Part shown: positions 12,509-48,039 of the stretch, one piece after another
Numbering within the stretch: position 1 is the stretch's first letter
Layout: each line of letters opens with the position of its first letter
Assembly: GCF_036013525.1 (NCBI RefSeq)
Contig: NZ_CP107853.1
Location: forward strand, 682,001-746,000
From: Nonomuraea sp. NBC_00507
Lineage (GTDB): Bacteria > Actinomycetota > Actinomycetes > Streptosporangiales > Streptosporangiaceae
Length of the DNA stretch: 64,000 bases
Reading direction: 5' to 3'
Translations under genes and position numbers: made by a program
Notes under the pieces: generated by a model
The model's input: only the letters and a program-made list of their open reading frames with translations
Told to the model about the DNA's origin: nothing
Databases searched by the model: none

Positions 12509-14256
12509 GGAGCTGCATTTCAATTAGTGCTCGGTGGTGAGTGCCGGTGCGAGGCTGGAGTATGAGTGTCCCTCCATCTCTCAGCGCTCCCGCTGCTGGC
12601 TTACAGGCCAAGTTCGATCAGATCCTGCCGCACTTGGATGAGCGCCGCCGTCGGTTCTACCTGGCCAGCGAGGCCAACGCGCTTGGCCACGGGGGGATCG
12701 CCCTGGTGTCCTCCGTGTCCGGAACCAGCGCCGCCACCATCACGCGCGGCATCGCCGAACTGGCCGGAAGCCCTGCGCCGTCCCGGCGGATTCGGGCTCC
12801 TGGAGCCGGACGAAAGCCGCTGACGGCCACCGACCCCGGTCTGCTGCCGGCGCTGGAGGCACTGATCGAGCCGCACACCCGCGGTGATCCTGTCTCCCCG
12901 TTGCGCTGGACCACGTTGTCTCTGCGCACCCTGGCCTCGACGCTGACCGCGCAGGGCCACCCGGTCAGCGCCGCAACCGTCGGGCACCTGCTGCACGCTC
13001 TGGGCTTCAGCCTGCAGGGCACGGCCAAGACCATCGAAGGCGCCCGCCATCCAGACCGCGATGCCCAGTTCGCCCACCTGAATGCCACCGCCACCACCTA
13101 CCTCGCCGCCGACCAGCCGGTGATCAGCGTCGACACCAAGGCCAAGGAGTGGCTCGGCAACCGCGACCGGCCCGGGCGAACCTGGCGGCCTGCCAAGAGC
13201 CCGATCCGGGTGGACTGCCACACCTTCATCACCAGCGACCAGCCGATCGTCATCCCTTACGGGGTCTACGACCTCGCCACTAACGTCGGCTGGGTCAATG
13301 TCGGAACCGATCACGACACCGCCGAGTTCGCGGTGGAGTCCATCCGTCGCTGGTGGCAGCACCGTGGCCGAGCCGACCATCCGGACGCCACCCGGCTGCT
13401 GATCACTGCGGACGCCGGCGGCTCCAACGATCCCCGCCACTGGACGTGGAAGAAACACCTGCACTCTTTCGCGATGGAGAGCGGGCTGGAGATCACGGTC
13501 TGTCACTTCCCGCCCGGAACGTCGAAGTGGAACAAGATCGAGCACCGGATGTTCTGCCACATCACGCAAACTGGCGGGGCCAGCCGTTGACCAGCTACCA
13601 GGTCGTCATCGACACCATCGCCGCGACGACCACCGGGGGCGGGCTGAGCATCGGCGCCGAGCTCGACACGGGCAGCTACCTCCTGGGCGCCACCGTCACG
13701 CCCGCCGAGTTCCATGCCCTGCCGATCACACCCAGCGCGTTCCACGGCGACTGGAACTACACCCTGGCCCCCACCCCGCCCAGCCCTCCCGAGGCACCAT
13801 CGACCAAGCGGCGCATCGATCCGAGCTTGACCACGATGCTCACCGACCCGGTCCTGACCGGCATGTCGCGGTCCGCCTTCGAACACCTGGTGGCGGTCTC
13901 GGAACCATACTGGGATGCCCTGGCCGAGGCGGCCTTCCGACGGCGCTTCCACCGCCCCCGCAGCTACCTCCACCCGCAAACCAGCAGCTTGGACCACTAC
14001 CATCGGCTGCTGACAGCCCTGCTGCGCCGGCGTAACGCAGCAACCAGCACACTCCTGGCCCAGTTGCTGGAGGTCGGCCGCACCAACTTATCCAACCAGT
14101 TCCAAGACGGCCACCGGCTCCTGGATCTACACCAAATCGCTGTCACACCGCTACCCGGATCGCCGGCCCGCACCCTGGAGCAGTTGCAGGCCCGCCTGAC
14201 ACCCACAGAAGACCGTTCCCAAGATCAAGTCTGACAATTATTCATTTACGAGCCCC
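12507..14256 (+). mobile_element. ISAzo13-like insertion sequence inside an IS701 remnant
   Basis: A roughly 1.75-kb element lies between the two halves of an IS701 transposase frame. Its ends are GGGGAGCTGCATTTCAATT on the left and, in inverse, GGGGCTCGTAAATGAATAATT on the right, an imperfect inverted repeat. Joining the flanks ..GCGGCC and GGCGGTGCC restores the uninterrupted reading QYTGTAG-GRIENSQ, so the boundaries are well fixed. A CCGG target duplication fits, but the GC-rich junction leaves the exact duplicate ambiguous by two bases. The element carries one transposase frame broken by a single-base shift. Confidence 0.8.
12562..14234 (+). pseudogene. ISAzo13-family transposase, frameshifted
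   Basis: Starting at ATG 12562, the first frame carries the winged N-terminal part ([20 protein letters not shown]) and the DDE core (ISVDTKAKEWLGN, LITADAGGSNDPRHW, CHFPPGTSKWNKIEHRMF). At about 13570 a single A appears to be lost, and this frame stops at 13590. The natural continuation (NWRGQPLTSYQVVIDTIA, then GTSKW-type C-terminal residues and a helix-turn-helix-like tail) lies in the -1 frame to 14234. No canonical slippery heptamer is present at the junction, so I read this as a disabling mutation rather than programmed frameshifting. Confidence 0.8.
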
Positions 14257-26511: not shown

Positions 26512-28136
26512 GAGATGGCTCCCAGCAGGGTCTGCACGGCCGGCGTGGTGAGGGAGAGCAGGAGGCCTGGCCAGAGGCCGAGCAGGAGGATCAGGGCGAC
26601 GAGCGGCGTCCAGGCCAGCAGTTCGTAGGTCCTGATGTCGGCTGCCGCCGCCGGCGCCAGGACGGCGATCTGTTGCGGCGGCGAGTCGAGGGGGACGACG
26701 GGGCGTTCGTCCGGGGTTTCGCGGACCAGGCGGTCGTCCGCGGCTTCTGGCGGGAGGTCCGCGATCAGTAGGGGGCGGCCGTGGGTGACGCGGGAGAGCA
26801 TCACCAGGAAGTACGCGGCCGTCAGGACCGCGCCCAGGCCGCCGATCGCCATGTAGGTGAGGAACAGGCCGCGCGGCAGGCCGGTCGCCGGCTGATAGGA
26901 GCCGTAGAGCGCCAGCATCTCGCCCCAGAACCCGGCCAGCCCGGGCAACCCGAGCGAGGCGATCGACGCGTAGGTCAGCAACGATCCGAGCCGCGGCAAC
27001 GTTGTCAGCATGCCGCCGCCCAGCGACGGCATGTCGGCGGTGTGGTAGCGCTCCTTGATCGCGCCGGCCAGGAAGAAGAGCAGACCCGTGATCAGACCGT
27101 GGGCGACGTTGGCGAAGAGCGCGCCATTGATGCCGACCGGAGTCAGCGTGGCGAAGCCGAGCAGGACGAAGCCCATGTGGCCGACCGAGGAGTAGGCGAT
27201 CATACGTTTGAGGTCGTGCTGGGCGAGGCACGCCAGGGCCCCGTACACGATGCCGACCACCGCGAACGCGCCCAGCCACGGCGCCACCGCCGCCGCCCCC
27301 TCGGGGAGGATGGGGATGGCGATCCTGGCGAAGCCGTACGTGCCCATCTTCAGCAGCACCCCGGCCAGCAGCACCGAGCCCACGGTGGGTGCCTCCGTAT
27401 GGGCGTCGGGCAGCCAGGTGTGCAGCGGCCACATGGGGGTCTTGACCGCCAGGCCGATGCCGATCGCCACGAACGCCAGGATCTGCACCGATCTCGCCAT
27501 GCCGCTGCCCTGGGCCGCGCTCAGCGCCTCGATGTCGAGCGTGCCGGTCTGGGCCCAGACGAGCAGCAGGCCGAGCAGCATCACCACCGAGCCGAGCAGC
27601 GTGTAGAGGATGAACTTGATCGACGCCGCCCGCCGGCCCTCGCCGCCCCAGATGCCGATCAGGAAGTACATCGGGATCAGCACGATCTCGAAGAACACGA
27701 AGAAGAGCAGCAGGTCGAGGGCGAGGAACGTGCCGATCATGCCGACTTCGAGCACGAGCAGCGTGAACACCAGCGCCCTCGGCCTGGTGCTCATCAGCTG
27801 GCCGGGGGCTCGGGCGCTGCCCCAGGAGAGATAGACGAAGCACAGGAAGGTCAGCAGGGCCGTCAGCGCGATCAGCGGCAGCGAGATCCCGTCGAGGCCG
27901 AGGTGGAAGCGGAGCCCGAGTCCCGGGATCCAAGGGATGTCCACCTCGAACTGCTGCCGCGCGGCCTGGCCATAGTCGAACATCGCCACCAGCAGGGCTG
28001 CCAGGGCCAGGGTGATGCCCGAAAGGATCAGTCCGTACGTGCGCAGCGCCGGGCGGAGGGCCTGCGGGGCCAGGACGAGGGCGAGTGCGCCCAGCAGCGG
28101 CACGGCCAGCAGCGAGACGGGAATCCAGCCCATCAT
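26508..28136 (-). CDS. nuoM: NADH-quinone oxidoreductase subunit M
   Basis: 542 residues. Signatures include FFVFFEIVLIPMYFLIGIWG (the essential glutamate of helix 5), [20 protein letters not shown] and AQHDLKRMIAYSSVGHMGFV. ATG 28136 with GGTGG upstream is the start; a second ATG follows directly. The segment between the last helices (about residues 440-500, PLLIADLPPEAADDRLVRET onward) is longer and more polar than usual. The start overlaps the stop of a repeat-built mini-ORF that separates it from nuoL. Confidence 0.95.
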   Translation of the reverse strand: MMGWIPVSLLAVPLLGALALVLAPQALRPALRTYGLILSGITLALAALLVAMFDYGQAARQQFEVDIPWIPGLGLRFHLGLDGISLPLIALTALLTFLCFVYLSWGSARAPGQLMSTRPRALVFTLLVLEVGMIGTFLALDLLLFFVFFEIVLIPMYFLIGIWGGEGRRAASIKFILYTLLGSVVMLLGLLLVWAQTGTLDIEALSAAQGSGMARSVQILAFVAIGIGLAVKTPMWPLHTWLPDAHTEAPTVGSVLLAGVLLKMGTYGFARIAIPILPEGAAAVAPWLGAFAVVGIVYGALACLAQHDLKRMIAYSSVGHMGFVLLGFATLTPVGINGALFANVAHGLITGLLFFLAGAIKERYHTADMPSLGGGMLTTLPRLGSLLTYASIASLGLPGLAGFWGEMLALYGSYQPATGLPRGLFLTYMAIGGLGAVLTAAYFLVMLSRVTHGRPLLIADLPPEAADDRLVRETPDERPVVPLDSPPQQIAVLAPAAAADIRTYELLAWTPLVALILLLGLWPGLLLSLTTPAVQTLLGAIS

Positions 28137-28261
28137 GCGGACACCACCGCCCAAACGCTCACGGGCCGTTCGGTCATGCGAACACCACCGCCCAAGCGCT
28201 TCACGGGCCGTTCGGTCATGCGAACACCACCGCCCAAGCGCTTCACGGGCCGTCCGGTCAT
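28133..28261 (-). CDS. Mini-ORF of three 14-codon repeats bridging nuoL and nuoM
   Basis: On the minus strand an ATG overlaps the nuoL stop (ATGA). It is followed by three tandem 14-codon units: [28 protein letters not shown], then MTERPVSVWAVVSA. A TGA then overlaps the ATGATG start of nuoM. The 42-residue product would be basic and low-complexity. Copy 3 has lost one base in the middle, which shifts its end and puts the stop on the nuoM start. Each unit carries a GGGCGGTGGTG ribosome-site-like tract. Whether the peptide matters or only the coupling does is unknown. Confidence 0.5.
   Translation of the reverse strand: MTGRPVKRLGGGVRMTERPVKRLGGGVRMTERPVSVWAVVSA
28134..28260. repeat. Three tandem 41/42-bp repeats between nuoL and nuoM
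   Basis: CATGCGAACACCACCGCCCA begins units at 28175 and 28217, with a variant at 28134 (one base shorter) and the origin of the duplication at the nuoL end at 28259. Units are nearly identical and all contain the GAACGGCCCGTGA segment in inverse. They amount to an expanded intergenic spacer that preserves reading frame. Confidence 0.85.
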
Positions 28262-30240
28262 GCGAACATCACCGCCCCTACCGCGATCAGGAGGACACCG
28301 GCCAGGATGCCGCTGATGTAGAGCTGGACGTTGCCGTTCTGGGCCAGGCGCAGCACCCCGGCCAATCCGCGGGCCGACCTGCCGGAGCCGCGGACCGCGC
28401 CGTCCACGACCACGTCGTCCGTCCTGACGACGAGCCTGGCCAGGGCCAGGACCGGGCGGACGAACAACGCGGCGTACAGCTGGTCCACATGGAACGCCTG
28501 CTCACATGGCGCCCGCAACGGGCCCAGCAGGCGTGCGGGGTCGGCGATGGGGTCGATGCGCCAGAAGGCGTAGACCACCCCCGCGCCGAGCAGCGCGAGC
28601 ACGACGCTGATGGCGGCCACGCCCAGATCCACGTGGAGTTCGCCGGCGAAGCCGAGCAGGAGCGCGGGGACGGAGAGGAGGATGAGGGGCACCAGCATCG
28701 TCCGCGGGGCTTCCGTGACGTCCACGACGTGGGCCGTGCCGGGTTCGGGCTCGGGCAACGCAACCGCCCTCGCCTCGCCGAAGAACGTGCGGAGCCAGGC
28801 TCGGGTGGCGTACGCGCCGGTGACGGCCACGGTGGCGAGGCCGCAGCCGTAAAGCAGGAGCGCTGCCGCGTCCGTCAGCGTGCCGGTCGCCAGGGCGTCG
28901 TCCATAGCCGCCAAGATCGCGTCCTTGCTGAAGAAACCGCTGGCCGGAGGGATGCCCATGAGGGCGGCGAAGCCGATCGTCATCGTCACGAACGTGATCG
29001 GCAGTTCCCTGCGCAGGCCACCCATCTGCGTCATCAGGTTGGAGCCGACGTGGTGGATCACCGCTCCGGCGCAGAGGAACAGCAGCGCCTTGAACGCGCC
29101 ATGTGTCAGCAGGTGGAAGATGGCCGACGTGTCGGAGCCCGCGGCCAGGCCGCCGGCCATGTAGGCGAGCTGGCTGACCGTGGAGTAGGCGAGCACCCGT
29201 TTCAAGTCATCCTGCGCCAGCGCGGCCAGGGCGGCGCCGAGCATGCCCAGTGCCGCCACGACGGCCAGCACGTCCATCGTGGGCGGGGCTTCGCGGAAGA
29301 CGTCGAAGAGCCTGGCGACGATGAAGATCCCGGCGGCGACCATGGTGGCGGCGTGGATCAGCGCGCTGATCGGCGTCGGGCCCGCCATGGCGTCGGGGAG
29401 CCAGGTGTGCAGCGGGACCTGGGCGCTCTTACCGGCCACACCGGCCAGGAGGAGCATGGTGGCGGTTACGGTGGTGGCCGTGGACATCTCCGGCACCTTG
29501 GCCAGGACGTCGGCGATGCGGAAACTGCCCGCCGCCTGGCCCAGCACGAAGATCCCGAAGAGGAAGCCGACGTCACCGAGGCGGGTCACGAGGAACGCCT
29601 TCACCGCGGCGCGCGAATTGCCCCGGTCCTCCCACCAGTGGCCGATGAGCAGGTAGGAGCAGAGGCCCATGATCTCCCAGCCGACGTAGAGGACCAGGAG
29701 GTCCCCTGCGTAGACGACCAGGAGCATCGCGCTGGTGAACAGGCTGATGAAAGCGCTGTAGGAGGGGTAGCGCGGGTCGTCTTTGAGGTATCCGACCGAA
29801 TAGACCTGAACGGCCAGGGCTACGAGCGTGACCAGGACGCCGAGGAGGCTGGACAGAGGATCGGCCTGGAGGGTGAGCGAGATCGGGATGGCGCCGGTGG
29901 TCACCGTGCCGTAGGTCTGGCCTGTGGGCTGTGGTGCCGTGGTGGTGCCCGCCAGGAACGCGAAGCCCGGGTCCCAGGCCAGCCAGGCTGCCAGCACTGC
30001 CGAGGCGGCGGTGGGCAGGATGGCCAGCCAAGCCGCCCGGGCATTCGCACGCTGCCCGTCGGTTGCCGCGGTCTGGGGGGCAGTGTCGCTTCCGCTGCCA
30101 TGGGGCGGCGGGTGAATGGCGGCTGGGCGCGGCGGGTGAATGGCGGCGGCTGGGCGTCGGCGGGGCCAGCGTGAAAGCAGCAGGCCCGCGAAGGCGGCCA
30201 GGAAGGGCAGGAGGACGGCCAGCAGGGGGAAGGTCGTCAT
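28258..30240 (-). CDS. nuoL: NADH-quinone oxidoreductase subunit L
   Basis: 660 residues. Signatures include [20 protein letters not shown] (essential Glu), [35 protein letters not shown] and [20 protein letters not shown]. The C-terminal part carries the lateral helix and last transmembrane segment ([20 protein letters not shown]). Near the N-terminus lies an unusual insertion of about 25 residues with a repeated RPAAIHPP motif, encoded by a short tandem DNA repeat at about 30111-30152. The start overlaps the nuoK stop (ATGA). Confidence 0.95.
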
Positions 30241-39712: not shown

Positions 39713-41557
39713 GTGACGAAGCAGGTCCAGCAACTCGACCGCGTGATCATCCGGTTCGCTGGGGACTCCGGCGACGGCATGCAGCTCACCGGCGACCGCT
39801 TCACGGCGGGCACGGCGGAGTTCGGCAACGACCTTTCCACGTTGCCCAACTTCCCGGCTGAGATCCGCGCGCCGGCAGGCACCCTGCCCGGCGTGTCGAG
39901 CTTCCAGCTCCACTTCGCCGACCACGACATTCTCACGCCCGGCGACGCGCCGAACGTGCTCGTGGCCATGAACCCGGCGGCACTCAAGGCCAACCTGGGC
40001 GACCTGCCCCGGGGCTCCGACATCATCGTGAACACGGACGAGTTCACCAAGCGCAACCTGCAGAAGGTCGGCTACGCCGCCAACCCGCTGGAGGACGACT
40101 CGCTCAACGAGTGGCGGGTCCACGCGGTGCCGCTGACCTCGCTCACCGTCAAGGCGCTCGAGGGCTTCGACCTGTCCAAGAAGGACGCCGAGCGGTCGAA
40201 GAACATGTTCGCCCTCGGCCTGCTCAGCTGGCTCTACCACCGGCCGACCGACCACACCATCAAGTTCCTCGAGCAAAAGTTCGCAAAGAAGCCGGAGATC
40301 GCCAAGGCCAACATCGCGGCCTTCCAGGCGGGCTGGAACTACGGGGAGACCACCGAGTCGTTCTCGGTGTCCTACGAGGTCAAGCCGGCGCAGCTGGCGC
40401 CGGGCGTCTACCGCAACATCTCCGGCAACCAGGCGCTCGCCTACGGCCTGATCGCCGCCAGCGTGCAGTCCAAGCTGCCGCTGTTCCTGGGCTCCTACCC
40501 GATCACCCCGGCCAGCGACATCCTGCACGAGCTCAGCAAGCACAAGAAGTTCGGCATCCGCACCTTCCAGGCAGAGGATGAGATCGCGGGCGTCGGCGCG
40601 GCGCTCGGGGCCGCCTTCGGCGGCGCGCTGGGCGTGACCACCACGTCGGGTCCGGGTGTGGCGCTGAAGGCCGAGACGGTCGGCCTGGCGGTCACCACCG
40701 AGCTGCCGCTGATCATCGTGGACGTGCAGCGGGCCGGGCCGAGCACCGGCATGCCGACCAAGACCGAGCAGACCGACCTGCTGATGGCCATGTACGGCCG
40801 CAACGGCGAGTCCCCGGTGCCGATCGTGGCGCCGATGTCGCCGAGCGACTGCTTCGACGCGGCCATCGAGGCGACCAGGATCGCGGTCAAATACCGCACC
40901 CCGGTCATGCTGCTCTCGGACGGCTACCTGGCCAACGGCTCGGAGCCGTGGCGCCTGCCCGAAATTTCCGACTTGCCTGATATTTCACAAGAATTTACGA
41001 CGACTCCGAATGGTGGCGACGGCGAGTTCCTGCCGTACAAGCGGGACACTGAGACCCTCGCCCGCCCGTGGGCCATCCCCGGCACCGCCGGGCTGGAGCA
41101 CCGCATCGGCGGCATCGAGAAGGCCGACGGCACCGGCAACATCTCCTACGACCCGGACAACCACGACCTGATGGTCCGCAGCCGGGCCGCCAAGATCGCC
41201 GGCATCGACGTGCCTGACCTCGAGGTCGACGACCCCGACGGCGACGCGAAGGTGCTGGTCATCGGCTGGGGCTCGACCTACGGCCCAATCGCCGCGGCCA
41301 TGCGGCGGATCAGGAGGAACGGCGGCAAGGTCGCCCAGGCACACTTCCGCCACCTCAACCCGCTGCCGGCCAACACCGGCGAGGTGCTCAAGCGCTACGA
41401 CAAGGTGCTGCTCCCCGAGATCAACCTGGGCCAGCTGGCCCTGCTGCTGCGGGGCCGCTACCTCGTCGACGTGATCAGCTACAACCGTGTGCGCGGGCTC
41501 CCGTTCAAGGCCGAGGAGCTGGCCGGAGTCATCCAGGACGTGATCGACAGTGACTGA
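39713..41557 (+). CDS. korA: 2-oxoacid:ferredoxin oxidoreductase, fused gamma-alpha subunit
   Basis: 614 residues. The gamma (catalytic-domain III) module is N-terminal (VIIRFAGDSGDGMQLTGDRF). The alpha module starts near residue 245 (LGSYPITPASDILHELSKHK, TFQAEDEIAGVGAALGAAFG, TTTSGPG). The C-terminal domain VLVIGWGSTYGPIAAAMRRI completes it. It pairs with KorB to convert a 2-oxoacid, probably 2-oxoglutarate, plus CoA to acyl-CoA, CO2 and reduced ferredoxin. AGGAGG precedes GTG 39713. The stop overlaps the korB start by eight bases. Confidence 0.94.
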   Translation: MTKQVQQLDRVIIRFAGDSGDGMQLTGDRFTAGTAEFGNDLSTLPNFPAEIRAPAGTLPGVSSFQLHFADHDILTPGDAPNVLVAMNPAALKANLGDLPRGSDIIVNTDEFTKRNLQKVGYAANPLEDDSLNEWRVHAVPLTSLTVKALEGFDLSKKDAERSKNMFALGLLSWLYHRPTDHTIKFLEQKFAKKPEIAKANIAAFQAGWNYGETTESFSVSYEVKPAQLAPGVYRNISGNQALAYGLIAASVQSKLPLFLGSYPITPASDILHELSKHKKFGIRTFQAEDEIAGVGAALGAAFGGALGVTTTSGPGVALKAETVGLAVTTELPLIIVDVQRAGPSTGMPTKTEQTDLLMAMYGRNGESPVPIVAPMSPSDCFDAAIEATRIAVKYRTPVMLLSDGYLANGSEPWRLPEISDLPDISQEFTTTPNGGDGEFLPYKRDTETLARPWAIPGTAGLEHRIGGIEKADGTGNISYDPDNHDLMVRSRAAKIAGIDVPDLEVDDPDGDAKVLVIGWGSTYGPIAAAMRRIRRNGGKVAQAHFRHLNPLPANTGEVLKRYDKVLLPEINLGQLALLLRGRYLVDVISYNRVRGLPFKAEELAGVIQDVIDSD

Positions 41558-42596
41558 GCTGGTTAACGGGAAGGGCTTGTCGCTCGTTCCCAAGACGGAT
41601 GTGAAGCAGGGCCTGAAGGACTTCAAGTCCGACCAGGAGGTCCGCTGGTGCCCCGGCTGCGGTGACTACGCGATCCTGGCCGCGGTGCAGAGCTTCCTGC
41701 CGGAGCTCGGGCTCAAGCGCGAGAACATCGTGTTCGTGTCGGGCATCGGCTGCTCGTCGCGGTTCCCTTACTACCTCAACACCTACGGGTTCCACTCGAT
41801 CCACGGCCGCGCGCCGGCGATCGCGACCGGGCTGTCCGCCTCCAGGCCCGACCTGTCGGTGTGGGTGATCACGGGTGACGGTGACGCGCTGTCCATCGGC
41901 GGCAACCACCTGATCCACGCGCTGCGCCGCAACGTCAACCTCAACATCCTGCTGTTCAACAACAGGATCTACGGTCTGACCAAGGGCCAATACTCCCCCA
42001 CGTCCGAGGTCGGCAAGATCACCAAGTCGACGCCGATGGGGTCGCTGGACAAGCCGTTCAACCCGATCTCGCTGGCCATCGGCGCGGAGGCGTCGTTCGT
42101 GGCCCGCACCCTCGACTCCGACCGCAAGCACCTGCAGTCGGTGCTGCGCGAGGCCACCGCGCACCGCGGCGCGTCGCTGGTGGAGATCTACCAAAACTGC
42201 AACATCTTCAACGACAACGCCTTCGAGCCGCTCAAGGACCCGGAGGTCCGCGACGACATCACGCTGCGGCTGGAGCACGGGCAGCCGATCGTGAGCGCCA
42301 CCAAGGCGGTCGTCCGGGCCGCTTCCGGCAGTCTTGAAGTCGTGGCCCGCGACGGCGTGAACGAGGACGAGATCCTCGTGCACGACGCGCACAATCCCGA
42401 CCCGTCGGTCGCCTTCGCGCTGAGCAGGCTGGACGACCCGGCGTTCGAGCACGTGCCGATCGGCGTCTTCCGCAGCGTGGACCGGCCGTCGTACGAGGTG
42501 GCCATGGCCGAGCAGATGGAGGAGGCCGCGCAGCAGAAGGGTCCAGGGGACCTGAGCGAGCTGCTGCTGGGCGGAGACACCTGGCGCATCGGCTAG
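41550..42596 (+). CDS. korB: 2-oxoacid:ferredoxin oxidoreductase, beta subunit
   Basis: 348 residues, the thiamine-diphosphate subunit. WCPGCGDYAIL at residues 33-43 supplies cluster cysteines. VSGIGCSSRFPYY gives another, and ITGDGDALSIGGNHLIHALR is the Mg-TPP motif; IYQNCNIFND carries the fourth cysteine. One 4Fe-4S cluster and TPP pass electrons to ferredoxin. It is translationally coupled to korA and followed by a strong hairpin. Substrate preference (2-oxoglutarate or pyruvate) is not decided by the sequence. Confidence 0.94.
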   Translation: MTELVNGKGLSLVPKTDVKQGLKDFKSDQEVRWCPGCGDYAILAAVQSFLPELGLKRENIVFVSGIGCSSRFPYYLNTYGFHSIHGRAPAIATGLSASRPDLSVWVITGDGDALSIGGNHLIHALRRNVNLNILLFNNRIYGLTKGQYSPTSEVGKITKSTPMGSLDKPFNPISLAIGAEASFVARTLDSDRKHLQSVLREATAHRGASLVEIYQNCNIFNDNAFEPLKDPEVRDDITLRLEHGQPIVSATKAVVRAASGSLEVVARDGVNEDEILVHDAHNPDPSVAFALSRLDDPAFEHVPIGVFRSVDRPSYEVAMAEQMEEAAQQKGPGDLSELLLGGDTWRIG

Positions 42597-42608
42597 TTGA
42601 TGATGAGA

Positions 42609-42635
42609 ATGGAGCCGTCGGCCGGGCGGCTCCAT
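42609..42635 (+). terminator. korAB terminator
   Basis: ATGGAGCCG (42609-42617) pairs perfectly with CGGCTCCAT (42627-42635) across a nine-base loop. GAGA/TCTC outside extend the stem with one bulge. It starts 13 bases after the korB stop. Confidence 0.75.
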
Positions 42636-42643
42636 CTCCCACG

Positions 42644-42951
42644 GAGCGGCGAACGTTTAGGCCCGAGAGCGGTAGCCTGCGTGACCAGCGAGGGCCAAGT
42701 GAGCGCGACCATTCAACACAGAGCGGCGAACGTTTAGGCCCGAGAGCGGTAGCCTGCGTGACCAGCGAGGGCCAAGTGAGCGCGACCATTCAACACAGAG
42801 CGGCGAACGTTTAGGCCCGAGAGCGGTAGCCTGCGTGACCAGCGAGGGCCAAGTGAGCGCGACCATTCAACACAGAGCGGCGAACGTTTAGGCCCGAGAG
42901 CGGTAGCCTGCGTGACCAGCGAGGGCCAAGTGAGCGCGACCATTCAACACG
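42644..42951 (+). repeat. Four perfect 77-bp tandem repeats upstream of a sugar epimerase gene
   Basis: Units begin GAGCGGCGAACGTTTAGGCC at 42644, 42721, 42798 and 42875. Copies are identical to the base, except that the last runs out at ..TTCAACAC into the epimerase ribosome site (GGAGG). Each unit has GGTAGCCTGCG (TAGCCT resembles an actinobacterial -10 box) and a short GTG frame beginning MTSEGQVSATIQH. The frame is closed by TAG in copies 1-3 but fuses in frame to the epimerase in copy 4. The array therefore multiplies a promoter/leader unit. Confidence 0.92.
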
Positions 42952-42965
42952 GAGGTCAATCCACG

Positions 42966-43889
42966 ATGTCGAATTGGCCTGGGACCGTGGTGCTGGTGAC
43001 GGGGGCCGCCGGATTCATCGGCTCGCATCTGGTGACGCGCTTACGAGCCCTCGGCGCTGAGGTGCACGCGGTCAGCCGCCGCCCTCAGCAGGCTCGCCAT
43101 GGAGAGATCTGGCACGCGGCACACCTGAACGACGCCGGTGAGACGACCCGGCTCGTCCAGTCGGTACGACCAAGCGTCCTGTTCCACGTCGCCGGCGAAG
43201 TCACTGGTTCGAGGAGTGACGAGGTCGTCCGTGCCACCCTGGAGAGCAATGTCATCGGCGGGGTCAACGTGCTGGCCGCCGCGCATGAAAGTGGCGTCAA
43301 GACCGTCCTCACCGGCTCCATCGAGGAGCCGCGCCCGGGCAACGACCAGGCGCCGCCGTCATCGGCGTACGCGATGTCCAAGTGGGCCGCCACCGGCTAC
43401 GCCCAGCTCTACCACCGGCTCTGGGATCTGCCCGTCACCGTGCTGCGCCCCAGCATGGTCTACGGGCCGGCCCAGCCCGACACCACCAAGCTCGTGCCCT
43501 ATGTGACTCTCTGCCTCCTCCGAGGGCAGCGTCCCCGCCTTACCAGGGCCACCAAGCTCGCCGACTGGATCTATGTCGACGATGTCGTCGACGCGTTCGT
43601 CCTGGCAGGCGAATCGGACAAGGCGATCGGACACACTCTTGATATCGGGACCGGTCTCAAGACCCCGGCCCATGAGATCGTCGAGAGACTTTATCGAATC
43701 GTCGACCCCAGCTCGAAGCCTGAATTCGGCACGACCCCCGATCGCCCGCACGATATTACGCAGGTCGGCGACATCACGCCGACCGCGGACCTGCTCGGCT
43801 GGCATCCTGTCACAGAATTGGACGAGGGGTTGCGCCGAACAGTCGATTGGTACGCGTCGCAAGAAAGTCACAAAGAATCACGCTCTTAG
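42966..43889 (+). CDS. NAD-dependent epimerase/dehydratase (sugar nucleotide)
   Basis: 307 residues of the extended SDR family. VLVTGAAGFIGSHLVTRLRA binds NAD(P). The catalytic pair is in SSAYAMSKWAATGYAQLYHR (Tyr-x3-Lys), and RPSMVYGPAQPDTTKLVPY follows as in NDP-sugar epimerases and 4-reductases. ATG 42966 has GGAGG nine bases upstream. An in-frame GTG at 42912 inside the last 77-bp repeat would add 18 residues. It is the first gene of the polysaccharide region, and its expression is likely set by the repeat array. Confidence 0.85.
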   Translation: MSNWPGTVVLVTGAAGFIGSHLVTRLRALGAEVHAVSRRPQQARHGEIWHAAHLNDAGETTRLVQSVRPSVLFHVAGEVTGSRSDEVVRATLESNVIGGVNVLAAAHESGVKTVLTGSIEEPRPGNDQAPPSSAYAMSKWAATGYAQLYHRLWDLPVTVLRPSMVYGPAQPDTTKLVPYVTLCLLRGQRPRLTRATKLADWIYVDDVVDAFVLAGESDKAIGHTLDIGTGLKTPAHEIVERLYRIVDPSSKPEFGTTPDRPHDITQVGDITPTADLLGWHPVTELDEGLRRTVDWYASQESHKESRS

Positions 43890-43947: not shown

Positions 43948-44604
43948 ATGAGCCGTCTGAATGCCCTACGCAGTCGTTTCGTGGATGCTCCGGACTCGCT
44001 GGGAGCCAAGGCACGGGCGCGAAGGTGGCAGTGGTTCGCCGACCGGTTCCCGGACCTCGACCAGATGAACGTCCTCGACCTCGGCGGTACTGCCGGAGCC
44101 TGGATGCGCGCTCCGGTCAGGCCTGCGCACGTACACATCGTCAACCTCGAGCAACCGCCCGCCGACCTGCCGGCGTGGCTGCGCGCCGACGTCGCCGACG
44201 CTTGCGACCTGCCGGCCTCGATCCGTGGTACGCGGTATGACCTGGTGTTCTCCAACGCGGTGATCGAACATGTCGGCGGGCACCAGCGTCGACAGCAGTT
44301 CGCCGACACCGTGCACGAGATGGCCGAGCGACACTGGGTGCAGACGCCCTACCGCTATTTCCCGGTCGAGCCGCACTTTCTGTTCCCTGGATTCCAGTTC
44401 CTGCCACTCGCCGCACGGACGACGATCCTGCGCCGCTGGCCACTCGTCCACACCCCGACCTCCGACCGGGACGCCGCCCGCATGATCGCCATGGAGGTCG
44501 AGTTGCTCAGCGTGACCGAGATGCGACACTACTTCCCCAAGTCCCAGATCCGCTTCGAACGGCTGGCAGGGCTGGTGAAATCGGTCATCGCGATCCGCAG
44601 CTAG
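43948..44604 (+). CDS. Class I SAM-dependent methyltransferase
   Basis: 218 residues. Motif I is [15 protein letters not shown], and [20 protein letters not shown] is the motif IV-like acidic/aromatic segment of the Methyltransf_11 type. [17 protein letters not shown] is common in methyltransferases near polysaccharide genes. ATG 43948 follows GGAGGAG; TTG 43945 abuts it. It lies 58 bases after the epimerase gene. The likely substrate is a sugar or glycolipid, which is inference. Its stop overlaps that of the convergent beta-helix gene by four bases. Confidence 0.8.
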
Positions 44605-46139
44605 CCTGCGGCCGACACGCTCGCGCCGTTGCTCTCCCAGGTGTTGCCGCGCCAGACGTTGCCCGGCCCGTTGGCGTCCCAGTACGACACCGGGCCCGCG
44701 TAGCCGCCCTTCGGCCACACCCTGCGGCTGAAGACGTTGTCGATCACCTTGATGTTCGAGGACAGTCCCTTCCTGCCTGCGCCCGCGTAGAGCGACCAGC
44801 CACCCCCGGCCAGCAGGTTGCCTTCCACGGTGACGTTGCGGGTCACGCCGAAGTCCTGGAAGAGCGCGATCGCACCCGTCTGGTCGAGCGTGTTGATCAC
44901 GGTGTTGTGCCGGATGATCAGCTCGGTGCCGGGGGCGGCGGTACCGGTCGACATGATCATGTCGGTGTGGTCCTCGGAGTAGTACTTCGGGTCGTGCACG
45001 TAGGAGTCCTCGACCAATCCTTGGTCGGTGAGGATGCCGTTGGAGATCGTATGGATGTCCACGCGGCGCACGGTGATCATCTTGCCCTGGTTGAGTATGC
45101 CGAACTGGGTGCGTTGCTTGCCGTTGCCGAAGATCTCGCTGTCCTCGACCTTGAGGCCCGAGAAGCCCGCGCGCTGGAGGATGCCCCAATAGTCGTCCTG
45201 GCCCCGCACTCGGGTGTTGCGGATGGTGACATTGTTGGCCTCCACCGTGATGTCGCCGGTGACGTCCCAACCGTCGATGACCTTGCCGTCTTCCTTGATG
45301 ACGATCGAGCCGGTCTTCTTGACCATCTCGGTGCCGGCGGGAACGCCGGTGTTGCCGGCTCCGGGCCAGTTGCCGCTCGGCGGCGGGGCGGTCGTCGGCG
45401 TCTTCGTGGGGGTCGCCGTGGGAGTCTCGGTCGGGGTCTTCGTAGCCGTCGCCGTAGGAGTGGCGGTCGGAGTCTGTGTCGGGGTCGCAGTGGGCGTCTT
45501 CGTCGGAGACACCGTCGGGGTCGCAGTGGGCGTCTTCGTCGGAGTCACCGTCGGGGTCGCAGTGGGCGTCTTCGTCGGAGTCACCGTCGGAGTCGCAGTG
45601 GGCGTCTCTGTCGGCGTCGCGGTCGGCGTCTTCGTCGGAGTCTCAGTCGGAGTCGCGGTCGGCGTCCTCGTCGGAGTCGCTGTGGGAGTGGCCGTGGGCG
45701 TCTTCGTCGGAGTCACCGTAGGCGTCACGGTCGGCGTCACGGTCGGCGTCGTGCTGGGCGTCATCGTCGGAGTCGCGGAAGGACTCGCGGTCAGCGTCGG
45801 CGTCTTGGTCGGTCTGCGCGTCGGCCGCGAGGTCGGCTTCTTGGTAGGCCGTCTGGGCCACCACCATGGACCCCTGGTCGTGACCTTCCCAGGCCGCGGT
45901 TTGTCGGTGGTCGGGCGCGGCCGGAGCCTCTGGCCGGCGGCAGCGTGCGGCGAAGCCGTGGCAAGGGTCCCCTTCGCATCCGTCAGGACCGCCTGAGGTT
46001 CCCGCACGTCAGCGGCAATGATGCCGTATCCGCCGGCCAGCACCGCCACGGCGGAGACGCCGGCCAGCACCGCCACGGCGGAGACGCCGGCCAGGGATAA
46101 CCACCCGCTACGCCGCTTGCTCCTTCGATGCCTCGACAC
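44601..46139 (-). CDS. Exported right-handed beta-helix protein with Thr-Pro-rich stalk
   Basis: 512 residues. GTG 46139 follows AAGGAG seven bases upstream, so the frame to 46196 is not needed. A basic start ([12 protein letters not shown]) leads into a hydrophobic signal or anchor with a doubled GVSAVAVLA unit from a 27-bp DNA repeat. Then come about 150 residues of [14 protein letters not shown] repeats, a rigid wall-spanning stalk. Last is a ~235-residue parallel beta-helix domain ([45 protein letters not shown]). Helix folds of this type belong to pectate-lyase-like polysaccharide enzymes or binders. It is paralogous to the lipoprotein upstream. Confidence 0.85.
46032..46085. repeat. 27-bp tandem duplication in a signal-sequence region
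   Basis: GCCGGCCAGCACCGCCACGG begins two perfect adjacent 27-base units (46032-46058 and 46059-46085), with nine bases of a third following. It duplicates GVSAVAVLA in the hydrophobic export segment of the beta-helix protein, lengthening it by nine residues. Confidence 0.85.
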
Positions 46140-46210
46140 AGGCGACTCCTTCCGATCATGGCCACGCCGAATCCCCCAAAGGGAGAGAGTAGCCATGCCG
46201 GAAGAACTAA

Positions 46211-46303: not shown

Positions 46304-47227
46304 TCATCCCGGCGGTACCGTCCCACCGTTTTCCCAGGTGTTCCCCCGCCACAGGTTTCCGGGCCCGTCATTATCCCAATATGAAACCGGCCCCGCGGCT
46401 CCGCCCTTGGGCCACACCCTGCGGCTGAAGACGTTGTCGATCACTTTGATATTCGACGATCTACCCTTGGCCCCGGCCCCCGCGTACAACGACCAGCCAC
46501 CCCCGGCCAGCAGATTGCCCTCCACCGTCACGTCCTTGATCACGCCGAAGTCCTGGAACAGCGCGATGGCACCCGTCTGGTCGAGCGTGTTGATGACGGT
46601 GTTGTGCCGGATGATCAGCTCGGTGCCGGGGGCGGGCGGCCCGGTCGACATGATCATGTCGGTGTGGTCGCCGGAGTAGTACTTCGGGTCGTGCACGTAG
46701 GAGTCCTCGACCACACCCTGCTGCGTCAGGATCCCGTTGGAGATCGTGTGGATGTCGACCCGGCGCACCGTGATCATCTTGCCCTGGTTGAGTATGCCGA
46801 ACTGGGTGCGCTGTTTGCCGTTGCCGAAGATCTCGCTGTCCTCGACCTTCAGCCCTGTGCGCCCCTCGCGCTGGAGGATCCCCCACCAGCCCTTGGTGCC
46901 GCGGACTCGGGTGTTGCGGATGGTGACGTTGTCGGCCTCGACCGTGATGTAGCCGGTCACCTCGACGCCGTCGATGACCGTGCCGCTCTTGGTCACCCGC
47001 ATGGAGCCGGACTTACGCAGTTCCACACCCTCGGGCACACCCGTGTTGTCCGGCCCCGGCCAAGCCCGCTCGGGCGGCTTGGAGGACGGAGCCGAGACAG
47101 ATGGGGACGCAGCCGTGGCGGGTGGCTGGGTGACGACCGGCTTCTGCGCGGCACCGGAACTCTGGCACCCGCTGAGCAGCACGATCAGGCCGACACCGAG
47201 ACACCAGCCTCCGGCGTACGACCTCAC
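46304..47227 (-). CDS. Lipoprotein right-handed beta-helix protein
   Basis: 307 residues from GTG 47227, which overlaps the upstream stop. A lipobox (GLIVLLSGC) anchors it to the membrane outer face; a short Pro/Ser linker (~45 residues) follows. Then comes a beta-helix domain nearly identical over long stretches to the neighbour at 44601 ([45 protein letters not shown]). A clustered TDMIMSTG with His/Asp residues could be a sugar or catalytic site. Export by a different anchor but the same fold suggests paired functions on the wall polysaccharide. Confidence 0.85.
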   Translation of the reverse strand: MRSYAGGWCLGVGLIVLLSGCQSSGAAQKPVVTQPPATAASPSVSAPSSKPPERAWPGPDNTGVPEGVELRKSGSMRVTKSGTVIDGVEVTGYITVEADNVTIRNTRVRGTKGWWGILQREGRTGLKVEDSEIFGNGKQRTQFGILNQGKMITVRRVDIHTISNGILTQQGVVEDSYVHDPKYYSGDHTDMIMSTGPPAPGTELIIRHNTVINTLDQTGAIALFQDFGVIKDVTVEGNLLAGGGWSLYAGAGAKGRSSNIKVIDNVFSRRVWPKGGAAGPVSYWDNDGPGNLWRGNTWENGGTVPPG

Positions 47228-48039
47228 GTTTCCTTGGTCTTCCGATTGCCGACGAGGTCGGCCAGCGCAGGTGGCGTCCAGCGCTTGGCGACCTGGCGGA
47301 GATTGCTCTTCCACGCCTCGCCGGGCCGTTCTTTGAACAGTGTGGTGTGCTCGTCGGTGACCTCGTCCTCGGGCCTGCCGTTGGAGTAGTAGTAGAGCGC
47401 CATCGAGCGCCGCGCCCGATCCTCCGGACAGGTCAGCGGGTCCGGATGCCCGTGGTTGGCGTCATCGGTCGTGGCGAACAGCACGAACCGGTTGAAGACC
47501 GGGAGGATCTTGCCCTCGCACTCGGTCATGTCCTTGTTCCATAGCTGCAGGTGCCCGCCGTAGCTCTCCTCCCAGTCCTTGTTGAGGTAGAGCAGGCCGT
47601 TGAGCCGGCGGTCGAGGTTGAGCTTGCGGCTCTTGTTGAAGTCGGCATGCACCTTGAGGAAGCCACCCGGCCGGATCTGGTGCAGGCCACCGCCTTCGAA
47701 GTGCGGGTCGGAGACCAGTTGCGCGATGCCGGTCAGCCGCTCGAGGAACTCGACGAACACTCCGCTGTTGAACTCCGCCAGCAGGTGCCGGGTGGCCGGC
47801 CCCATGCGCTCGGTGTCGGCCAGCGCCAGCTTCACCTCACGCGCGGTGTCGAACCGCTGCCAGGTGGCATCTCGCGGCTCGGGGAACTCCTCGAGGACGG
47901 GCTCCAGCACGTCGGGCGGCAGGAAGTCGTCGATGACCACATGACGGAACGGCGAGGCCGTACGGAACTGCTCGGAATACTTGTCCGCGAGCGGGAAGAG
48001 CTCATCCCGGCGAAAGGTGAAAGCCTGCAGATCCTGCAT
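47224..48039 (-). CDS. 2OG-Fe(II) oxygenase (prolyl-4-hydroxylase-like)
   Basis: 271 residues of the 2OG-FeII_Oxy_3 type. The iron ligands are HADF (GGFLKVHADFNKS) and a distal His in TTDDANHGHPDPLTC, and the 2-oxoglutarate-binding arginine is in RARRSMALYYYSNG. LNGLLYLNKDWEESYGGHLQ is characteristic of this family. It should hydroxylate a substrate using O2 and 2-oxoglutarate; relatives in polysaccharide loci act on sugars or proteins. Its stop overlaps the lipoprotein beta-helix start, hence an operon. Hydroxylation of the Pro-rich stalk proteins next door is an attractive guess. Confidence 0.85.
   Translation of the reverse strand: MQDLQAFTFRRDELFPLADKYSEQFRTASPFRHVVIDDFLPPDVLEPVLEEFPEPRDATWQRFDTAREVKLALADTERMGPATRHLLAEFNSGVFVEFLERLTGIAQLVSDPHFEGGGLHQIRPGGFLKVHADFNKSRKLNLDRRLNGLLYLNKDWEESYGGHLQLWNKDMTECEGKILPVFNRFVLFATTDDANHGHPDPLTCPEDRARRSMALYYYSNGRPEDEVTDEHTTLFKERPGEAWKSNLRQVAKRWTPPALADLVGNRKTKET

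Follow-up and report, generated by a model that had tools for sequence, protein, structure and literature searches.

The locus analysed here lies within a window of 64,000 nucleotides from Nonomuraea sp. NBC_00507 (contig NZ_CP107853.1, positions 682,001 to 746,000), and window coordinates are used throughout. On the forward strand, a gene for a TPP-binding oxidoreductase subunit is followed by a hairpin, a tandem array of 77-bp units and an epimerase gene. The features are as follows, where G075 is a genome labelled as the same species.

41550..42596, + strand: upstream gene, TPP-binding oxidoreductase subunit, called korB in a preliminary description of this DNA (ORF, Pfam)
42605..42638, + strand: post-korB hairpin, terminator-like, with no T-run; stem invariant in eight aligned orthologous loci
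42640..42646 and again 42948..42954, + strand: CACGGAG at the left and right edges, possible target-site duplication of 4-7 bp
42641..42948, + strand: four tandem 77-bp units of an interspersed repeat; 308 bp absent from G075, with exactly these limits or with equivalent ones shifted within the ambiguous ends CACGGAG
42644..42712, + strand: conserved core of about 69 bp, unit 1 (GAGCGGCGAACG...GCGACCAT)
42721..42789, 42798..42866 and 42875..42943, + strand: cores of units 2-4
42713..42720, also 42790..42797 and 42867..42874, + strand: linker TCAACACA between cores
linker position after the last unit, + strand: reads TCAACACG
42659..42697, + strand: unit 1 stem-loop, AGGCCC / 26-base loop / AGGGCCA
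42966..43889, + strand: epimerase gene from a conserved ATG with GGAGG upstream (Pfam: NAD-dependent epimerase/dehydratase)

By TRF, a tandem array with a period of 77, 4.1 copies and 99% matches (score 616) occupies 42640-42954. The preliminary description had reported four identical 77-base units; the array is real, but the wording is too strong by one base. In the register 42644-42951, units 1-3 are identical and unit 4 differs solely at its last base (G instead of A at 42951), and in a register shifted by 3, one base separates the first unit from the other three. The inner linkers end in CACA and the outer ones in CACG. The description had also placed a TAGCCT and a short GTG frame in each unit, with the last frame entering the epimerase, and these positions were borne out. 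TAGCCT is found at 42673, 42750, 42827 and 42904. Of the four GTG frames, those beginning at 42681, 42758 and 42835 are each 18 codons long, and the fourth, from 42912, continues in frame into the epimerase (ORF 42912-43889). The array itself is intergenic, and its period is not divisible by three. Its placement after a korB terminator was partly upheld, in that a strong hairpin (-24.7 kcal/mol, z -2.98) with an invariant stem follows the korB end at 42596, but this hairpin was not counted as a terminator under the T-run rule. The loop of the hairpin is variable in the eight aligned orthologous loci. An Rfam search of 42400-43200 returned no matches. For the downstream gene, earlier labelled a surface-sugar epimerase, the Pfam assignment agrees with the epimerase part of the label but does not extend to surface sugars.

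To see the locus in relatives, we took the eight sequences that best match the start of the epimerase gene (own locus included) as orthologous loci and compared them. G075 lacks the unit and shows 98.9% identity over 550 bp counted from the epimerase start; its sequence is CCCACGGAGGTCAATCCACGATG at the position where the window carries 308 bp extra. Altogether, six of the eight loci were empty: G075, G017 (N. turkmeniaca), G061, G059, G022 and G002. N. jabiensis (G010) carries one unit at the place where the window carries four, though nearer relatives are empty, so either repeated insertion or several precise losses must have occurred. The ATG and the preceding GGAGG are present in all eight loci, and about 20 nt separate the korB hairpin from the ATG in the empty allele. 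The GTG frame that runs into the epimerase exists in the array allele only. Because the ATG and GGAGG are present without the array, the gene start is independent of it and the GTG extension is accidental. CACGGAG stands on both edges in the window, and its outer CACG reads CGCG in N. jabiensis. The CACG (CGCG in N. jabiensis) may represent a target duplication of 4 bp, in which case GAG would belong to the first bases of the unit.

The unit is not confined to this locus. A covariance model built from 20 cores, applied to 150 of 22,403 first-look candidates, gave at least 48 matches in the own genome at E <= 0.001, one of them partial. Grouped by position, these matches form at least 27 loci, nine of which are arrays of 2-6 units, so that the unit occurs at no fewer than 26 own-genome loci besides the window. 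Furthermore, nhmmer found 46 copies in the own genome, and the core pattern with up to 3 mismatches was found at 41 places, with 0 in the reversed control. ACACA linkers recur in arrays at other loci, and the tandem joint may therefore be a property of the element and not of this target. In a DNA search that scored up to 11 candidates per genome, 11 of 59 genomes, all from the same genus, matched the array with its edges; since only the epimerase flanks were matched in G002 and G022, 9 of the 59 hold the unit on that basis. Matches were carried by 21 of 54 Nonomuraea genomes. In a family-level draw, 20 of 297 genomes matched, 13 from the same genus and 7 from other genera. The matches in these seven were weak, six of the genomes having a single match and one having two (best E 2.3e-7), and they may represent distant relatives of the repeat outside the genus. 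The exact core pattern occurred in 45 stretches of a collection of 84,980 species, all in Nonomuraea, in a scan for exact matches of one pattern that a distant relation could escape. The same pattern gave 0 stretches in viral contigs, and blastn gave no match in plasmids and phages. To judge from sequence, the array unit is a member of an interspersed repeat family spread through Nonomuraea chromosomes.

We then compared the own genome (G000) with G075 for the presence and number of units. Joined flanks were used as queries; 16 of the 17 listed pairs were compared, and 13 gave presence/absence sites (window included), of which 8, again including the window, are filled only in the own genome and 5 only in G075. 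The inserts in the alignments measured 74-80, 154 and 308 bp. The pairs that gave none were L092 (counterpart has a copy), L169 (counterpart is a partial unit) and L111 (alignment unusable), and no counterpart was found for L179 and L104. The flank search was run without L091, L095 (second copy), L100 and L113 of the own genome and L165 and L181 of G075. At L109 and L112 the flanks themselves have diverged, so an imported allele could explain these two sites. In addition, 29 G075 copies were mapped onto own loci, and the copy number differed at 4 of 11 shared loci (3/2, 4/1, 1/2 and 3/2), counting full copies and setting aside a twelfth shared site, L095/L182, with a partial copy. Because the G075 assembly is a draft in 110 contigs, its arrays may contain more copies than were counted; its empty sites should be unaffected, since assembly collapse should not give an empty site. 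The edge duplication is clear at the window but indistinct or missing at several of the other empty sites, and with this inconsistency transposition in the strict sense is unproven. The preliminary description had read the array as a recent, unstable expansion. Its absence from same-species G075 and the number differences at shared loci agree with that reading and support both an unstable copy number and a recent expansion.

The middle of the unit consists of a nearly constant loop on a stem that varies with pairing kept. In 43 distinct sequences aligned on the constant loop (14 hits without this anchor were excluded), the four middle stem pairs were paired in 165 of 172 cells against a column-shuffle mean of 141.0 and a maximum of 152 in 2000 shuffles, with the qualification that the four pairs were picked after viewing the sequences and that related sequences may score above such shuffles even where no structure exists. 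At columns 4-36 the pair is C-G in 20 of the 43 sequences, G-C in 16 and T-A in 4. Just outside and just inside the four pairs, the adjacent positions are paired in only 22/43 and 26/43, respectively. RNAalifold marked two pairs with double changes only. A freer stem search gave real arms with a mean of 8.2 compared to 7.1 in shuffled sequences, and 19% of shuffles reached the observed mean. Folds of single units were no more stable than those of shuffles (z 0.72 for DNA and -0.96 for RNA). Still, the exchange among three pair types, below a loop that stays constant, speaks for a role of the folded strand.

Some copies lie inside genes. With the window set aside, 12 sites could be compared, and at five of them the gene frame is open through the unit and, in the empty allele, on both sides of the site. 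These genes encode a GH9 cellulase, an acyl-CoA dehydrogenase, an inositol monophosphatase-family enzyme, a GFO/IDH/MocA oxidoreductase and a polysaccharide lyase 8; the first four genes are on the strand of the unit and the last is on the opposite strand. Two more in-frame copies of the own genome, in GH101 and cytochrome bd subunit II genes, both have G075 counterparts. The copies concerned are given here:

L094, L114, L176, L154 and L167 (also L110 and L107): in-frame copies in enzyme genes

The translation of these in-frame copies is predicted. In the G075 inositol monophosphatase-family gene, the repeat stands directly after the stretch IVDPLDGTREFS.

A dispersed family, a precise empty site in the same species, five other empty relatives, a variable copy number and a covarying stem together lead to an insertion account: very probably, the array arose by recent insertion of a short, spreading stem-loop repeat, which then multiplied head to tail at the site. 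A trans-acting protein would recognise the folded single strand, either DNA or RNA, and move the unit, and the copy number would then change when replication slips or when the 77-bp repeats recombine unequally. At this locus, the unit would have inserted downstream of the korB hairpin and upstream of the ribosome-binding site of the epimerase, and an insertion that left this site intact would have been tolerated. No mobilising gene was identified. A single-strand transposase (Y1, of the IS200/IS605 or RAYT type) acting in trans on the hairpin would suit a conserved loop on a covarying stem with no evident inverted ends, and 15 Y1_Tnp matches are present in the own genome. However, Y1_Tnp was found in 16 of the 21 repeat-bearing genomes and in 18 of the 33 genomes that lack the repeat, which is no convincing association, and of the 14 Y1 places listed among the 15 of the own genome, the nearest to any repeat is about 15 kb away. 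We consider such a mover improbable. Near-perfect tandem repeats are prone to misassembly. An assembly artefact is nevertheless extremely unlikely here, given that the own genome is in 2 contigs, that arrays of the family occur in several independent assemblies and that N. jabiensis has a single copy at the same site.

The preliminary description had instead proposed a promoter/leader array driving the epimerase, in which changes in copy number could tune polysaccharide synthesis as a phase-variation-like device. The position of the array between the korB hairpin and the gene, and the TAGCCT and GTG frame of each window unit, fit this proposal. In addition, for one mycobacterial gene the mRNA level has been linked to the length of a variable tandem repeat upstream of it, in a paper whose abstract and strain-by-strain text differ as to the direction of the effect (PMC2734929). 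However, TAGCCT was counted in 4 entries of a catalogue of 114 copies, in which those with identical surroundings were counted once (the window as three); all told, it occurs in the four window units and in only one other copy (L222), outside the own genome. Even the loose form TANNNT is found in just 15 of the 42 other own-genome copies identified by nhmmer. A sigma-70 scan of 42400-43100, with other sigma factors outside its scope, returned 0 sites with 0.0 expected; it found none in shuffles either and says little on promoters. The idea that the array was made for the epimerase is not supported, as the unit recurs elsewhere in the own genome, in some cases inside genes, and the six empty orthologous loci keep the ATG and GGAGG. 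With a gene start that exists without the array and a TAGCCT that is nearly window-specific, we rejected the promoter array as the best reading and regard a locus-specific device of this kind as very unlikely. Effects on expression are possible, but any effect on the epimerase would more likely be incidental to having a 308-bp leader than explain why the array exists. An intermediate reading holds that a mobile repeat inserted and that its copy number was later co-opted, through the spacing between hairpin and gene or through read-through or leader structure. The short distance between hairpin and ATG in the empty allele means that a 308-bp insert must alter the leader, and the mycobacterial precedent applies here as well. 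Against this, best-matching units of the two strains were identical at 729 of 748 positions and their flanks at 12934 of 13157 (Fisher p 0.11; the window is excluded, its site being empty in G075). Units are thus no more alike than flanks, which gives no general indication that the unit is under selection. We regard co-option as unlikely, though less so than a promoter array.

Beyond the locus, the repeat can be set beside several known systems. MIRU-VNTR loci, as described in parts of PMC2734929 and PMC3635867, consist of 40-100 bp units at dozens of actinobacterial chromosomal loci, mostly between genes, with copy numbers that vary between isolates. The Nonomuraea repeat is likewise dispersed, tandem and variable in number (at least 27 loci, 9 arrays; 4 of 11 differ). 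In contrast to the MIRU units as characterised in those parts, it combines a conserved loop with a covarying stem, and some of its copies are in frame in enzyme genes. Judged by its exact core pattern, which hit Nonomuraea only, it is not a MIRU. Rickettsia palindromic elements, according to passages of PMC10969869, are dispersed elements of about 150 bp that insert in frame into unrelated protein genes and are translated. The Nonomuraea repeat resembles them in entering protein genes in frame (5 of 12 sites) but differs from that description in its unit of 74-77 bp, its tandem arrays and its host group, and the likeness is one of description. With MITE, REP/BIME and similar elements it shares a short length, dispersal and presence or absence at precise sites between strains. 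Unlike them, it has no evident terminal inverted repeats (none on inspection of the ends GAGCGGCG... and ...GACCATNNACACA), an inconsistent edge duplication and no parental insertion sequence that we could find. No description of the family was found in the open literature by title and abstract start, a weak indication that it is unpublished. We tentatively propose, at slightly less than an even chance, that it is an undescribed actinobacterial family of structured repeats that spread by themselves and are recognised in the form of a folded strand. The family would form intergenic tandem arrays as well as an in-frame stretch of 25-27 residues in the middle of enzymes, and its activity would be recent enough to account for differences at no fewer than 13 sites between two strains of the same species. 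Such a family would give the large-genome Nonomuraea their own equivalent of MIRU typing loci, and the filled and empty sites within one species would form a natural set for studying how such repeats move and multiply. Furthermore, the in-frame enzyme copies would make the tolerance of a mobile repeat within folded proteins testable. At the epimerase locus, a general genome process would replace the hypothesis of a specific switch.

Elsewhere in the window, a minus-strand gene (44601-46196) contains a repeat region rich in threonine and proline at 45393-45822, and its minus-strand neighbour (46304-47314) is similar to it. At 28133-28277, where ORFs overlap, a 42-bp repeat is present in 3.5 copies with 95% matches. 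Copies of the GGGGC/GCCCC subfamily were also observed nested in a larger dispersed repeat of about 200 bp, whose start lies close to TTTACG or TTGTACG and whose end, in most cases, lies close to GTTACG. This larger repeat was seen at L091, L095, L099, L113, L164, L165, L186, L195, L210, L219 and L226, and its left half at L100.
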